Shown piece by piece: positions 221 through 22,032 of a stretch of 22,716 bases of DNA. Position 1 is the stretch's first letter; each line of letters opens with the position of its first letter. This DNA is from a virus. Under the pieces are notes generated by a model. It was not told the origin of the DNA and did not search any database. It saw nothing but the letters and a program-made list of their open reading frames with translations. The position numbers and the translations under genes were made by a program. Location: positions 1 to 22,716 of the IMG/VR virus record IMGVR_UViG_3300046657_000038; one strand, 5' to 3'.

Positions 221-577
221 TCAGTCGGCTCCGGGGAGAGCGAAGTTGTTCTCCCTCAGCTCCTTCATCACCGCGGCGTGAAGAGCCTTGTTCGACGCGG
301 CCGAGCCGTCGACCGGACCGTCGAAGCCGATCTCCCGCGCGAGCGCGCGGCGAGCCGGCATCCCGTCGTCGCGACCGAGGAGCTTGAGGAGGTCGACGAT
401 CGACTCCCTCCAGTCGTCGAGGCCCTGGCCGGGGCGCCGAGCGACCTCGTCGGCGAGCGCCGCGTCGACCTCGTCCTGGGTCCAGCCTCGCTCGCGCTGA
501 TCCTCGTTCCGGTCCTTGTGAAAGAGGTCGCAGAGCTTCCGGATCGCCGCGACGATCCCGTGAAGAATTATTCCCAT
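221..577 (-). CDS. DUF3597-family protein
   Basis: 118 residues. The C-terminal two thirds carry the DUF3597 pattern: a W-R-x-S-I-V-D-L-L-K-L-L-G segment (about residues 56-68), an A-R-R-A-L-A-R-E-I-G-F segment (about 75-85) and a closing K-A-L-H-A-A-V-M-K-E-L block (about 97-107). DUF3597 is a small helical domain of unknown biochemical function found in proteobacteria and their phages. The first 25 residues are amphipathic (MGIILHGIVAAIRKL) and could touch a membrane. AGGAG six to seven bases before the ATG supports the start. It follows the holin-like gene by 30 bases, at the end of the lysis block, but a role in lysis is not shown. Confidence 0.82.
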   Translation of the reverse strand: MGIILHGIVAAIRKLCDLFHKDRNEDQRERGWTQDEVDAALADEVARRPGQGLDDWRESIVDLLKLLGRDDGMPARRALAREIGFDGPVDGSAASNKALHAAVMKELRENNFALPGAD

Positions 578-607: not shown

Positions 608-940
608 CTAGGCCGCGATCTTGGCCTCGACCTTAGCGACGGTCGCCTCCTCAAGCTTCCGGACCTCCTGCTTGTCGGAGGCGGACGCCTGAGGCGGCGT
701 CTGCATGACCAGCTTGGTATTCCCGGGGAGCTGACCGGCCGCGTCGTTGAGGAGGTTCTGGGGACGGTTCGTCCACCACGCACGGGCATTGCCGACGAGG
801 AGGATGATTCCTCCGGTGAGGTACGCGGCCATCTCCGCGTCGTACCACCCGGTCTTCGCGCCGACGGTGGTCACGAGCGGGACGAGGACGGCGTAGGCCG
901 TCCGCTCCGTCATCCCGATGCCCTGAACTGAGTTGATCAT
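608..940 (-). CDS. Holin-like protein from an in-frame internal start
   Basis: 110 residues starting at the ATG at 940, inside and in frame with the DUF1353 ORF. Two hydrophobic segments (about residues 13-29 and 37-53) are followed by A-W-W-T-N-R-P and a motif with LPG, then a charged, Lys/Glu-rich C-terminus (88-108). Two spans, small size, charged tail and position just after the muralytic gene fit a phage holin; the TNRP...LPG layout resembles proteobacterial phage holins I know, but I could not run a search. GAGGAGG sits six bases before the ATG, one of the best ribosome sites in the window. Expected role: pores in the inner membrane that release endolysin at the end of infection. Confidence 0.65.
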   Translation of the reverse strand: MINSVQGIGMTERTAYAVLVPLVTTVGAKTGWYDAEMAAYLTGGIILLVGNARAWWTNRPQNLLNDAAGQLPGNTKLVMQTPPQASASDKQEVRKLEEATVAKVEAKIAA

Positions 941-1465
941 CTTAGTCCTCCTCGCCCCGAGCGCGGCCCGGAGCTTCTCGTTGTAGGTGACCATCGTCGT
1001 CTCGACACCGCAGATAGTCCCGATTCGGACCCCGGCGTAAAGCGCGGTGCGCGCTAGCCACCCGACTCCGCTAGCGAACATCGCCTCGCGGAAGACGCGG
1101 TCCGCGTCGGTCCGCGTCGGCGCCTCGTCGTGAGGGCGACCCATCGCGACGAGGCAGCAGAGGTAGTCGTGGACCACTCCGGCGCGGCTCCAGCTCCCCC
1201 ACACCGGGAGGACGGCCCACAGGAAGCGCGGGACCGACGGGCCGTCCGTGACGAACTCCGCCGGGACGACGACGAGGCGCTCGGGGAGCGAAGGGAACTG
1301 ACCGAACCCGGACGCCTCAAGCTCCGCGCGAGCGCGCCGTCGCTCCGCGTTGACTTCGGGCGCGACGTCGTAGACGAGCGGCTCGTCGATCCTCCAGAGG
1401 CGCCACGCGCCCGGCTCGGCGGAGAGCTGAGCGACGCGAAGCTCGCTCGCGAACGTCGCCGTCAT
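608..1465 (-). CDS. DUF1353 domain fused in frame to a holin-like domain
   Basis: 285 residues as one uninterrupted frame. Residues 1-175 are a DUF1353 protein: the hallmark F-V-T-D-G-P-S-V-P-R (71-80), V-V-H-D-Y-L (97-102) and a T-D-A-D-R-V-F helix (119-125) are all present. DUF1353 is common in phages, often near lysis or tail genes, and has no settled function. Residues 176-285 look like a separate small membrane protein with two hydrophobic segments and a charged C-terminus (see the nested entry). No stop codon separates the halves. The ATG at 1465 overlaps the TGA of the preceding gene (ATGA) and is preceded by AAGGGGA. Either the full fusion is made, or only part of it with the C-terminal part initiated separately. 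Confidence 0.75.
   Translation of the reverse strand: MTATFASELRVAQLSAEPGAWRLWRIDEPLVYDVAPEVNAERRRARAELEASGFGQFPSLPERLVVVPAEFVTDGPSVPRFLWAVLPVWGSWSRAGVVHDYLCCLVAMGRPHDEAPTRTDADRVFREAMFASGVGWLARTALYAGVRIGTICGVETTMVTYNEKLRAALGARRTKMINSVQGIGMTERTAYAVLVPLVTTVGAKTGWYDAEMAAYLTGGIILLVGNARAWWTNRPQNLLNDAAGQLPGNTKLVMQTPPQASASDKQEVRKLEEATVAKVEAKIAA
938..953 (-). promoter_or_regulatory. Internal ribosome binding site and start of the holin-like product
   Basis: On the minus strand GAGGAGGA is followed by CTAAG and ATG, near ideal for initiation. The same bases encode Arg-Arg-Thr-Lys in the upstream DUF1353 frame, so the site lies inside a coding frame with no stop between. This site decides that the C-terminal 110 residues can be made as a separate protein. 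Confidence 0.6.
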
Positions 1466-2091
1466 CTTCCCCTTCGGAGCCACGCGAGGACCTCTGGCCT
1501 CATCGACCCCGGACACGTGTTGAGGACGCACGCCTTGCCGTGGGCCATCTGCCTCGGGGTCGGGTTGTAGTACGCGCGGTCGGCCATGAGCTGAGCGATC
1601 GTCTTTCCGGCCATGTTCCCGCAGATCAGCGGGCACGGGTAGAGGGTCGAGCCGTCGTTCACGGCCGGGGCCGCCGTCCTCGTCCGGGACTCGATCTTCG
1701 CCGCCGGGCGGGGAGCCTTCGGCCGTGCCTTCGAGGGGGTCGCCGCCTTCGGGACGGAGACCGGAGCGACCTTCGGCGCCGGAGGGGTTGGCGCCGAAGC
1801 TACGGGAGGCGCCGGCTCGACGCGGGCCGCGGGCAGGGCCTCCGTAGGGGCCGGGGCGGGAGGCCTCTCCGCGGGCTCCGTAGGGGCCGGCCAGACGAGG
1901 TCCGGGGGAGGGGTCCAGAGGTTCTCCGGGATCGGTATCGGTATCAGGGCCGGCCGCTCCGGGAGGAGCGGGACCGGCGCGGGCCGGCCGCGGTCGCGGA
2001 ACTTCCCGACCTCCCGCGTCAGGGTCGTCTCGCCGACCGCGGGGAGGGCCGCGGTCACGAGGATGGCGAGGGCGAGGAGAATCCGGATCAA
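1462..2091 (-). CDS. Secreted Pro/Ala/Lys-rich protein with C-terminal cysteine motif
   Basis: 209 residues. I chose a TTG start at 2091 because it overlaps the stop of the preceding gene (TTGA), has GGAG seven to eight bases upstream, and places a clear signal peptide first: RILLALAILVTAALPAVG (about residues 3-20). Residues 37-132 are a low-complexity rod rich in Pro, Ala and later Lys/Arg, like the periplasm-spanning segment of TonB-type proteins. The C-terminal domain (148-209) has four cysteines in the pattern C153-x3-C157 and C188-x4-C193, probably disulfide-bonded once exported. It sits between the muralytic gene and the DUF1353-holin gene. A periplasm-spanning or spanin-like role is plausible from architecture and context, but the family is not recognised. 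Confidence 0.7.
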   Translation of the reverse strand: MIRILLALAILVTAALPAVGETTLTREVGKFRDRGRPAPVPLLPERPALIPIPIPENLWTPPPDLVWPAPTEPAERPPAPAPTEALPAARVEPAPPVASAPTPPAPKVAPVSVPKAATPSKARPKAPRPAAKIESRTRTAAPAVNDGSTLYPCPLICGNMAGKTIAQLMADRAYYNPTPRQMAHGKACVLNTCPGSMRPEVLAWLRRGR

Positions 2092-2627
2092 GTCGTCTTC
2101 TCCGGGGCCGGATCGCGAGGAAAGATTTTTCCGATAGCGCGCAGCGCGCCCATCCCGAGCGTCGCGGCGGTCTTGACCGTCGGGGACGCCCCGCCGATGA
2201 GCGAGAGGATCGGGAGCCCGAACGTCGTGACGAGGCTCGTGATCGTCGGAGCGGCGGAGAACGCGTCGCCCTGAACCCCGGCCTGGGTCGCGGCGATCGA
2301 CCCGAGGAAGGTCGAGATCGCCGAGGCGCCGTTGATCATCCACGACGGGGTGTCGGCGAGCGGCCCCTTCTTCGCGGGAGCCGTCGTCGTCGGAGCCGAC
2401 GTCCCGACCGTGTCGGCGAGCGGCGGAGCCGTCGTCCCCGGGAGGAGGACGCGCGGAGGAACCTTCCCGCCGAGCGCGACGACGATCGAATCCATCATCT
2501 GCTGACGGACGTCTCCCATCGACGCGCGGACCTTCGCGACCTCCTGCTCCAGGATGGGGCGAAGACGATTGAGTATTCCCTCGACGATCGGGTCGGTCCC
2601 CGTCGTCTGAGTCGGTTGGTCTGGCAT
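2088..2627 (-). CDS. Possible separate membrane-associated protein from an in-frame internal start
   Basis: 179 residues beginning at the ATG at 2627, in frame with the last part of the muralytic ORF. AGAGGAGGA lies directly upstream with a short CCT spacer. The N-terminal 50 residues form a predicted amphipathic helix (IVEGILNRLRPILEQEV and onward), followed by a Pro/Thr linker (about 57-90) and two moderately hydrophobic segments (about 101-118 and 129-147), then a basic C-terminus. The preceding residues of the large ORF look like a linker ending an enzyme domain, so this could be a cistron whose upstream neighbour has lost its stop. A holin-like or antiholin-like role is a guess from context; the hydrophobic segments are weak. 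Confidence 0.5.
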   Translation of the reverse strand: MPDQPTQTTGTDPIVEGILNRLRPILEQEVAKVRASMGDVRQQMMDSIVVALGGKVPPRVLLPGTTAPPLADTVGTSAPTTTAPAKKGPLADTPSWMINGASAISTFLGSIAATQAGVQGDAFSAAPTITSLVTTFGLPILSLIGGASPTVKTAATLGMGALRAIGKIFPRDPAPEKTT

Positions 2628-4892
2628 AGGTCCTCCTCTGGACGGCGGAATGAAGACGTCGGGCTCGGTCGGCGGCTTGCGTCCGGCGGTGACGGAGGCC
2701 TCGACAAGCATCTCGATCGAGCGCAGGAGCGAGTCTGCGTCCGGTGAGACCTCGACGTCCTTCCTCCGGATCGGTCCCCAGTGCCCGTTCGGCCCGCCCA
2801 TGAAGCGGAGCCCGACGGCGGCGACCTCGACGGCGAAGGCCGGCTTGCGCTTCGCGAGCCTCTGGAAGTCCGCCCCCGTCCCGGAGCCGACGGTCTCCTC
2901 CGGCTCGGAGGGGACGCCCTCGCGGAAGACGGCGACGAACCCGTCGAACGCACTCGCCGAGTAGGTTCGCAGGAGCTTCGGTATCTCGGGCGAGGCACCG
3001 TGCGAGTCCCAGCTCTGTTGAAAGAGCCCGGCCTCGGCCGTATCGGCGGTCTGCTCGCTCATCGGGACGGACTGGTCTCGTCCCTCGTTGTACTGGCCGC
3101 TGCTCTCCATCATCCCGAGGCCGAACATGATCGTGAACAGAGAGCGGAGCGACGCGATCCCGGACGGAGGTCTCCCGATCTCCGGGGCGTACCACGTGAG
3201 GACGTCCTCCTGGCGACCGGACGGAGCGGCGGCCATCGTCGTCGCGGCGGAGCCGGCCGCGGCTAGTTCAAGGTAGCACTTCGCGTACGCCTCGCACATC
3301 CCCTTCGTGTACCCAAGCGGGGCGCGACCGCGGTCGGCCCAGTCGTGAGACGCGAGCGGGGACGACCCGGCGAGAGCGGCGATCCTCGCCACGAGTTCGG
3401 GAGAGAGCATGACCCCGAGGACGGCGCCGCTACTCGGGACCGCCGGCTTGTCAGACGCGAGGGCCGGCCACGTCTCCTCGCCGATCTCGCCGTCGACGCC
3501 GAGGCCGCGCGAGGCCTGGAACATCATCGTGGCGTTGTGGGTCTCGTTGTCGAAGGTCCCGCTCTGCCGAATCCCGAGGAGGCGCTGAGCCTCCGAGACG
3601 AACGGGCCGAAGTCGCTCAGCCTGATCAGGGGCCTCAGCTCCGGCGGGACCTTCGAGACGTCGATCGGGATCGCGACCGCGTCGATCGTCGGCGGCCGGC
3701 GAACGGAGCGGACGCCGTCGATCGAGAACTGACTGATCTTGACGCCGTCTGACTGGTTCCCGCCGATGCAGAAGAGGACGTCGCCCTCGCGGTGGTCGAG
3801 GAAGGTTATGTGATGAGGGTCGTGGAGGACGACGACGTCGCCCGGACGAGCCTGGTCTATCGGGACGAGTTCAGCGCCCCACGGCGTGTCCTCGAACGCG
3901 TCGACGTACATCCAGCGGAGGACGTCTCGCGCGCCGAACGGGGGCCGCGTCCCGTAGCACTTGAAGAGGACCCACGCGATGAATATCCCGCACCACGACG
4001 TCGCCGCGGTCGCCTCCCTCGCGTACTCCATCATCTCGGGGAAGGCGGCCCCGATCTCCGCGGCGAGGACGGGGACCTTCGGCCCGTCGACGATCCTCCC
4101 CTGAAGCGACTTGGCGAAGACGAGGTGCTTGGGCTCGGCCATGACTTTAGGCTCCGTTTGTTTCGACGCGGTCGTCGGCAGCTTGACGTCGACGACGTTC
4201 TTGCCGCCGTACTCATCGTCGGAGAAGTCGTGGGTCACGGAGATGTTCTTCTGGACAGTGATGTCAGAAGCGATCCCCCTCGCCCATGAGTCGTCCTTCC
4301 CGAACGAGACGAAGAAGACCGGGAAGTCGTCGTCCTTATCAGCCTCGCGCCTGAGCGTCGCCATACTCGTCAAGCTACCGGCACCCTCCTCGGCGATGAT
4401 CCCCTCGCAGCGTCGGACGAGATCAGTCGGGTCCTTGCCCTGTTCGATCAGCGTCCCCGGGTTCTTCGCGAGGACCGCGAGGCCGAAGCGAAACGCGACA
4501 GAGATCGCGTCGGCGACGTCGGCGACGCCGTACGCGTCCCAGTTGTCCAGCTCGACAAAGAGGAAGCCGCGAGCGCGACGCCGCCTGAACTGGTCCTCCA
4601 GGTTCTTTTTCCACCCGGCCCCGGCCGGGTTGATCCTCCCCTCCTTGTAGTCGCGGGAGGTCTCCGTCGGCGGGAGGTAGGGGCCGTAGTCACCGGTCCC
4701 GCCGTCCTCGTCGAACTTGTAGCTCTCGCTCTGGTCGAGGAGGTTGCAGTATCCGACGCCGATCCCGTGGATCGGAGGAAGGTCACAGTCCCACGGAACG
4801 ACCGTGACGACGTCGTCGGCCCCGAGGAGGACCTCGTCTCCCTCGCTCGCTCCGAGCGCGTACCTGATACGCTTACCACTCAACTCACTCAT
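2088..4892 (-). CDS. Multi-domain peptidoglycan-degrading (endolysin-like) protein
   Basis: 934 residues. Domains in order: residues 30-240, a barrel-like domain with FLFVELDNWDAYG (110-122) that recalls glycoside-hydrolase-like (GH114-type) folds; 265-400, a CHAP/NlpC-like amidase (TIGR02594-like) with W300-C301-G, H360/H361 and a GGNQSDGV segment (377-384); 425-478, a type 1 peptidoglycan-binding domain; 495-735, a lysozyme-like domain with candidate catalytic E596 in GLGMMESSG and E620-AGLFQQSW; 756-934, a C-terminal extension with two hydrophobic segments. There is no signal peptide, so release would depend on a holin. The ATG at 4892 has AGAGG about seven bases upstream. It is far longer than a usual endolysin and might instead be a virion-associated lysin. 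The C-terminal part has its own ribosome site. Confidence 0.8.
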   Translation of the reverse strand: MSELSGKRIRYALGASEGDEVLLGADDVVTVVPWDCDLPPIHGIGVGYCNLLDQSESYKFDEDGGTGDYGPYLPPTETSRDYKEGRINPAGAGWKKNLEDQFRRRRARGFLFVELDNWDAYGVADVADAISVAFRFGLAVLAKNPGTLIEQGKDPTDLVRRCEGIIAEEGAGSLTSMATLRREADKDDDFPVFFVSFGKDDSWARGIASDITVQKNISVTHDFSDDEYGGKNVVDVKLPTTASKQTEPKVMAEPKHLVFAKSLQGRIVDGPKVPVLAAEIGAAFPEMMEYAREATAATSWCGIFIAWVLFKCYGTRPPFGARDVLRWMYVDAFEDTPWGAELVPIDQARPGDVVVLHDPHHITFLDHREGDVLFCIGGNQSDGVKISQFSIDGVRSVRRPPTIDAVAIPIDVSKVPPELRPLIRLSDFGPFVSEAQRLLGIRQSGTFDNETHNATMMFQASRGLGVDGEIGEETWPALASDKPAVPSSGAVLGVMLSPELVARIAALAGSSPLASHDWADRGRAPLGYTKGMCEAYAKCYLELAAAGSAATTMAAAPSGRQEDVLTWYAPEIGRPPSGIASLRSLFTIMFGLGMMESSGQYNEGRDQSVPMSEQTADTAEAGLFQQSWDSHGASPEIPKLLRTYSASAFDGFVAVFREGVPSEPEETVGSGTGADFQRLAKRKPAFAVEVAAVGLRFMGGPNGHWGPIRRKDVEVSPDADSLLRSIEMLVEASVTAGRKPPTEPDVFIPPSRGGPMPDQPTQTTGTDPIVEGILNRLRPILEQEVAKVRASMGDVRQQMMDSIVVALGGKVPPRVLLPGTTAPPLADTVGTSAPTTTAPAKKGPLADTPSWMINGASAISTFLGSIAATQAGVQGDAFSAAPTITSLVTTFGLPILSLIGGASPTVKTAATLGMGALRAIGKIFPRDPAPEKTT
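2625..2639 (-). promoter_or_regulatory. Internal ribosome binding site inside the muralytic ORF
   Basis: On the minus strand AGAGGAGGA-CCT-ATG. The same bases read Arg-Gly-Gly-Pro-Met in the large ORF (residues 752-756). It matches the Shine-Dalgarno strings used by other genes here, though the four-base gap from GGAGG to the ATG is slightly short. It marks where the C-terminal 179-residue product would start. Confidence 0.5.
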
Positions 4893-21466: not shown

Positions 21467-21705
21467 CCTACTCCTCCTGCCTCGTCCTTCGCCTTCTGCT
21501 CCGGGTCGACGGCTCCCTGGATGACGGACTTCAGCGTGTCCGTCATCGCGAGCGCGATCTTCCGGTTCCTCTCGTCGATCGCGAGCGCGATCTCCTCCGC
21601 GAGGCGATCCATCTCCGGACCCGGGAGGCGGTCCGAGTACGGCGCGAGCTTCGACCTCACGATGGTCTTGAGGTCGTCACTTATCGTCGTCGGCATCGTG
21701 ACCAT
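21463..21705 (-). CDS. Small helical protein, unknown
   Basis: 80 residues, predicted mostly alpha-helical with regular hydrophobic spacing (DDLKTIVRSKLAPYSDRL; MDRLAEEIALAIDERNRKIA). Starts at 21705 or at the ATG three codons later (21696, with GGATGG upstream); both overlap the end of the membrane protein gene by 20-29 bases. It belongs to the connector region, but no family is recognised. Confidence 0.6.
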   Translation of the reverse strand: MVTMPTTISDDLKTIVRSKLAPYSDRLPGPEMDRLAEEIALAIDERNRKIALAMTDTLKSVIQGAVDPEQKAKDEAGGVG

Positions 21706-22021
21706 CCGGTATCGCTATGTTGTTCCTCGACAGGACTCGCTCCAGCTTAGATATTCTCCGGTCCTGCTTCTGGTTGTTCGACTCCAGGTCTCCGATCCTC
21801 CCGAGGAGGCGATCGCGCTCGTTCTGAACCGACGTGAGGAGCGAGACGAACCCGGAGACGAGCGAGGCCTGGGCGTCGATCTCATGTCTCTTCCTGTCGC
21901 CGAGCCACTTCCAGAGCCCGGTGACCACGGCCGTAACGACGGCGACGGCCCCGGCCACGATCGCCCCGACGGAGGTCGAGTCGAGGTGGTCCTCCTGAAG
22001 TACCGCCGCGGTCGCGTTCAT
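21677..22021 (-). CDS. Single-span membrane protein with coiled coil
   Basis: 114 residues from the ATG at 22021, which has GAGAGG upstream. One strongly hydrophobic segment (TSVGAIVAGAVAVVTAVVTG, about 16-35) is followed by W-K-W-L and a basic patch (GDRKRH), which places the rest in the cytoplasm by the positive-inside rule. Residues 52-99 have heptad-like spacing (LVSGFVSLLTSVQNERDRLL) of a coiled coil; the end is acidic. Small one-span phage proteins of this layout include holin-like or accessory membrane proteins, but this one lies in the head-tail region far from the lysis genes. Function unknown. Confidence 0.68.
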   Translation of the reverse strand: MNATAAVLQEDHLDSTSVGAIVAGAVAVVTAVVTGLWKWLGDRKRHEIDAQASLVSGFVSLLTSVQNERDRLLGRIGDLESNNQKQDRRISKLERVLSRNNIAIPDGHDADDDK

Positions 22022-22032
22022 CGTCGCACCTC

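Follow-up and report, generated by a model that had tools for sequence, protein, structure and literature searches.

The 608-1465 open frame on the minus strand of the window (the whole stretch of viral DNA analyzed here, 22,716 bases) may be a two-in-one lysis gene, which would give a phospholipase A2-like enzyme tethered to the membrane together with a surplus of free membrane protein, and the nearby endolysin gene may be built likewise. We put this reading forward tentatively, as the best explanation of what the sequence holds. The open frame, the identity of its first domain, the catalytic residues, a strong ribosome site and a repeat of the same layout in a second gene can be seen directly; from these we infer that both products are made, insert into the membrane, assemble jointly and act in lysis. 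The host record is that of an unclassified bacterial virus derived from a metagenome, and no near relative of the whole window was found in the collections searched. The features under discussion are collected in Table 1.

Table 1. Coordinates of the nested genes and of their surroundings in the window.
Feature	Position	Strand	Description
DUF3597 protein gene, downstream of the fused gene	221..577	-	own strong ribosome site
Fused open frame, 285 codons + stop	608..1465	-	DUF1353 (phospholipase A2-like), then putative two-helix membrane protein of 110 residues
Nested open frame with own start, 110 codons + stop	608..940	-	predicted helical hairpin and charged tail; orphan
DUF1353 part, residues 1-175	941..1465	-	Pfam match, invariant residues, AlphaFold model
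Shine-Dalgarno GAGGAGG	947..953	-	six bases before ATG 940
Gene lying between fused gene and endolysin gene	1462..2091	-	N-terminal signal or membrane segment, proline-rich middle, Cys-containing C-terminus
Endolysin-like open frame, 934 codons	2088..4892	-	TIGR02594-like region, peptidoglycan-binding domain, phrog_33367 domain, then nested hydrophobic frame
Nested open frame within the endolysin gene, 179 codons + stop	2088..2627	-	two hydrophobic segments; orphan
Shine-Dalgarno GAGGAGG	2632..2638	-	four bases before ATG 2627

A sequence-only reading of this DNA had claimed that no stop separates the DUF1353 domain from the membrane part and that GAGGAGG lies six bases before an in-frame ATG at the boundary. 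Both claims hold, as the minus strand from 1465 to 608 is a single stop-free frame of 285 codons, and the boundary reads GAGGAGG-ACTAAG-ATG, with a spacer of 6 and ATG 940 in frame. A strong internal ribosome site thus stands within the gene, and the long and short frames have a common stop. The start codon at 1465 itself shares bases with the stop codon that ends the upstream gene (ATGA). Homology backs the DUF1353 frame up to the boundary, the nearest relative (locus L024) being 48% identical over residues 3-175. The use of AGG as a stop codon was considered and rejected, as AGG is used 96 times within the window genes.

Comparison of anti-Shine-Dalgarno pairing among the 121 internal in-frame ATGs of the window genes revealed that the site at 2627, within the endolysin gene, is the strongest (-11.9) and the site at 940 the second strongest (-11.6), the latter approaching the values of the window's best gene starts (-11.8 and -12.4). 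Internal in-frame ATGs with AGGAGG 4-10 bases ahead were observed twice; across 2000 synonymous shuffles the mean number was 0.18, and two or more such sites arose in 0.95% of the shuffles (P = 0.0095). The internal starts at 940 and 2627 are therefore unlikely to have arisen by chance. Rough initiation energies with local folding included, which are crude and ignore translational coupling, favored 940 (8.3) over 1465 (16.3) and 2627 (4.3) over 4892 (8.2).

The arrangement at 2627, in the last fifth of the endolysin frame, repeats the layout of 940 and was overlooked in the sequence-only reading. The phrog_33367 domain, in which lysozyme-like motifs were recognized by eye, is common to the Bdellovibrio phage proteins phi1402 gp39 and phi1422 gp01; these end about 10 residues past the shared domain, whereas the endolysin gene of the window continues to 2627. 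No significant relatives were found for the 179-residue piece encoded from there. Each nested start comes just after an enzymatic domain has been completed (DUF1353 homology ends at residue 175), and in both genes that domain continues into an orphan, hydrophobic, separately startable piece.

The window genes lie on the minus strand, where a lambda-like tail module (proteins L and J, NlpC/JAB, tape measure) is followed by the endolysin-like gene, gene 2091-1462, the fused gene and the DUF3597 gene, in that order. Gene 1462-2091 overlaps both of its neighbors, its TTG start overlapping the endolysin stop; it has no family match, and its sequence makes an envelope or spanin-like protein possible. 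In the head-tail connector region, a gene on the same strand (21677-22024) encodes a small protein that has a single strongly hydrophobic segment and a C-terminus resembling a coiled coil, with a weak match to a PHROG labeled 'hol-like chemotaxis'.

At 940, both other reading frames are closed exactly at the start codon, with TAA just before the ATG and TGA overlapping it, all within four bases; only 3 of the 175 ATGs on the minus strand have both other frames closed so near. These stops had been overlooked in the sequence-only reading. The junction resembles an ordinary one between genes, so that one small alteration in the final codons might have fused two separate genes, either biologically or as an error in the record. 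Because of these stops, a serious rival at 940 is that two ordinary neighboring genes lost their separating stop through one small change near the DUF1353 end, by recent mutation or record error, in which case the membrane protein would be made from 940 as a normal gene and the fusion would be incidental or absent. Gene pairs that overlap stop-to-start are common in this phage, as this explanation would have it. The boundary at 2627 is different, since no stop lies nearby in any frame; a length error is thus no explanation for the second case, and lost stops could account for both genes only if the cassette had suffered two of them independently. On balance, we consider the loss of a stop less likely than two products from one gene.

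The relatives of DUF1353 bear on the same rival. Close relatives of the whole 285-residue protein were found neither in phage records nor in viral contigs. That DUF1353 and holin genes are normally separate, which the sequence-only reading had given as known, agrees with 218 DUF1353 loci, most of which end within about 30 residues of the domain, and with fusobacterial phages (phiRTG5; loci L051, L058, L063, L091 and L095). The latter have the same order, enzyme then membrane protein, but, unlike 608-1465, as separate genes, of which the first ends in a stop and the second follows after 9-22 bases; their membrane protein is more hydrophobic than the 110-residue piece, with three to four segments. 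No relative keeps the fusion, and conservation therefore cannot be demonstrated, but L024 also continues in frame past the corresponding boundary, for 57 residues, which speaks against a lost stop. This 57-residue extension has no membrane segment and no internal start, and it is not homologous to the 110-residue piece. Two loci from Lentisphaerae/Kiritimatiellaeota (L105 and L106) carry an extra 135-144 residues or so after DUF1353.

The DUF1353 part of the fused gene is likely a membrane-lipid-cutting, phospholipase A2-like enzyme, judging from its family and active-site residues. Pfam DUF1353 (PF07087) matches residues 63-146 with an E-value of about 1e-20 to 3e-20 and a score of 72-73 bits, against a curated cut-off of 22.5. 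Within the family, TtaP has been proven to be a phospholipase A2 that has a His/Asp dyad, and the authors of that work considered the same activity likely in other DUF1353 proteins (PMC11525133). Across 78 aligned DUF1353 members, His99, Asp100 and Asp122 do not vary; they correspond to H70, D71 and D85 of TtaP as described in PMC11525133. TtaP is a single-domain protein of 125 residues, whereas the domain of 608-1465, with the Pfam family and the catalytic His-Asp and Asp residues in common, leads on into a putative membrane hairpin that has its own internal start. The AlphaFold model is confident over DUF1353, and its last helix (158-182) crosses the boundary into a less certain hairpin. The top PDB fold match of the model was a bacterial phospholipase A2 (8k1w), not significant (E 0.66; TM-score 0.48 by target), and no PDB fold matched below E 0.001; the only PDB match of the sequence profile, a Streptomyces phospholipase A2, was likewise not significant (E 0.74). 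In PHROGs, the DUF1353 family (PHROG 1158) goes under the name 'tail assembly chaperone', which phage records have taken over; given a member with proven phospholipase A2 activity, this name is probably mistaken in many phages.

The suggestion that a fusion could tether DUF1353 to the membrane proved sensible, because one DUF1353 protein is a proven phospholipase A2 and hydrophobic tails are fused to the domain elsewhere. Such C-terminal tails occur in a minority of the 218 loci, mostly actinobacterial, and have one to four segments (L093, L099, L115, L128, L135, L136, L137, L139, L142, L197 and L257); from their sequences, these proteins are candidates for membrane-bound phospholipases. Membrane tethering of DUF1353 is therefore probably not unique to 608-1465, and the strong nested start is its standout feature. 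These loci (L257 judged by its tail), which have the hydrophobic tail and lack a strong internal start, would favor a single product from 608-1465, that is, a phospholipase anchored by a C-terminal hairpin, with the internal ribosome-site-like sequence unused. We regard this as improbable, given the strength and spacing of the 940 site, its position where the domain ends, the second such site at 2627 and the weaker-looking start at 1465. In phages Bjorn, AH02 and phiRTG5, DUF1353 has an endolysin or holin gene next to it or not far away; at L093 and L099 it lies among tail genes rather than lysis genes.

The 110-residue piece had been described as a two-span membrane protein and as holin-like. 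The first description stands in part: there are two hydrophobic segments and a modeled helical hairpin (residues 187-205 and 210-232, AlphaFold) with a charged tail, but hydrophobicity is only moderate (best 17-residue Kyte-Doolittle mean 1.28) and no homologue was detectable. As for a holin, no relative of the piece was found: Pfam and NCBIfam gave no match, PHROGs none of significance, and phage records and fetched loci no relative. The lone match in 385 alphaproteobacterial genomes (L268) was spurious, lying antisense to an ABC-type ATPase gene. The protein is small and is encoded in the lysis cassette, two genes downstream of the endolysin-like gene; given the moderate hydrophobicity and the lack of a detectable homologue, 'holin-like' is a guess from shape and position.

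The sequence-only reading had gone further and proposed a timing switch like that of a holin/antiholin pair, the ratio of long to short form setting lysis time; as an antiholin, the long form would block the short holin. In known dual-start holins, the long form differs by a short charged extension. The switch seems very improbable here, as the long form bears instead a 175-residue domain with enzyme active-site residues and the 110-residue piece is a holin only putatively, even though the long and short forms would have the same membrane part and some phages are known to make holin and antiholin from two starts (dual-start motifs, mentioned in PMC9671378).

We hypothesize that the two-in-one gene would work as follows. 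Initiation at 1465 would give a phospholipase A2-like enzyme with a C-terminal membrane hairpin, while initiation at 940, where the ribosome site is much stronger, would yield a surplus of the hairpin protein on its own. This short product would collect in the inner membrane, acting as a holin or holin-like partner, and recruit the long form with its enzyme, which would focus lipid cutting on the membrane lesion. The endolysin gene would follow the same plan, with a long enzyme and a free membrane protein from 2627. Against this two-in-one reading stand a fusion that is kept in no relative, an orphan and moderately hydrophobic piece, the stops at 940, and the position of L093 and L099 among tail genes.

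The closest known systems are endolysin genes, which commonly yield two in-frame products, some of which form mixed oligomers (PMC9430671). Two-polypeptide endolysins (PMC9430671; CTP1L, PMC4777826; LysIME-EF1, PMC7098653) resemble 608-1465 in being lysis genes with an in-frame nested frame, a common stop codon and a ribosome site of its own near a domain boundary. Their short product is the soluble cell-wall-binding part and their hosts are Gram-positive, whereas the short products predicted from the window resemble membrane proteins, and one of its predicted long products appears to be phospholipase A2-like. A potential fusion of a holin with the major capsid protein has been proposed in Gordonia phage EpicDab (PMC9671378), in which, as in 608-1465, a holin-like membrane segment is part of a larger functional protein; there the holin-like part is N-terminal and is proposed to be freed by a protease, whereas in 608-1465 the membrane part is C-terminal and has an internal start.

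The coding trick and the enzyme family are both already known; the new part appears to be their pairing with membrane proteins, twice in one cassette, and an enzyme with a nested membrane protein in such a double arrangement was not found in the open-licence papers searched. It is conceivable, if rather doubtful, that the whole forms a module in which a phospholipase A2 and a multidomain endolysin are both membrane-tethered, strong internal starts give free membrane proteins, and both lipid and wall are cut at the lesion by mixed enzyme-holin assemblies. Soluble binding subunits are the known outcome of internal starts in lysis genes. If the two-in-one reading is true, one frame would encode both a lysis enzyme and its membrane gate, which would then be produced together and could co-assemble. 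The case also points to a lysis role, as phospholipases, for the large and mostly unassigned DUF1353 family of phage proteins.
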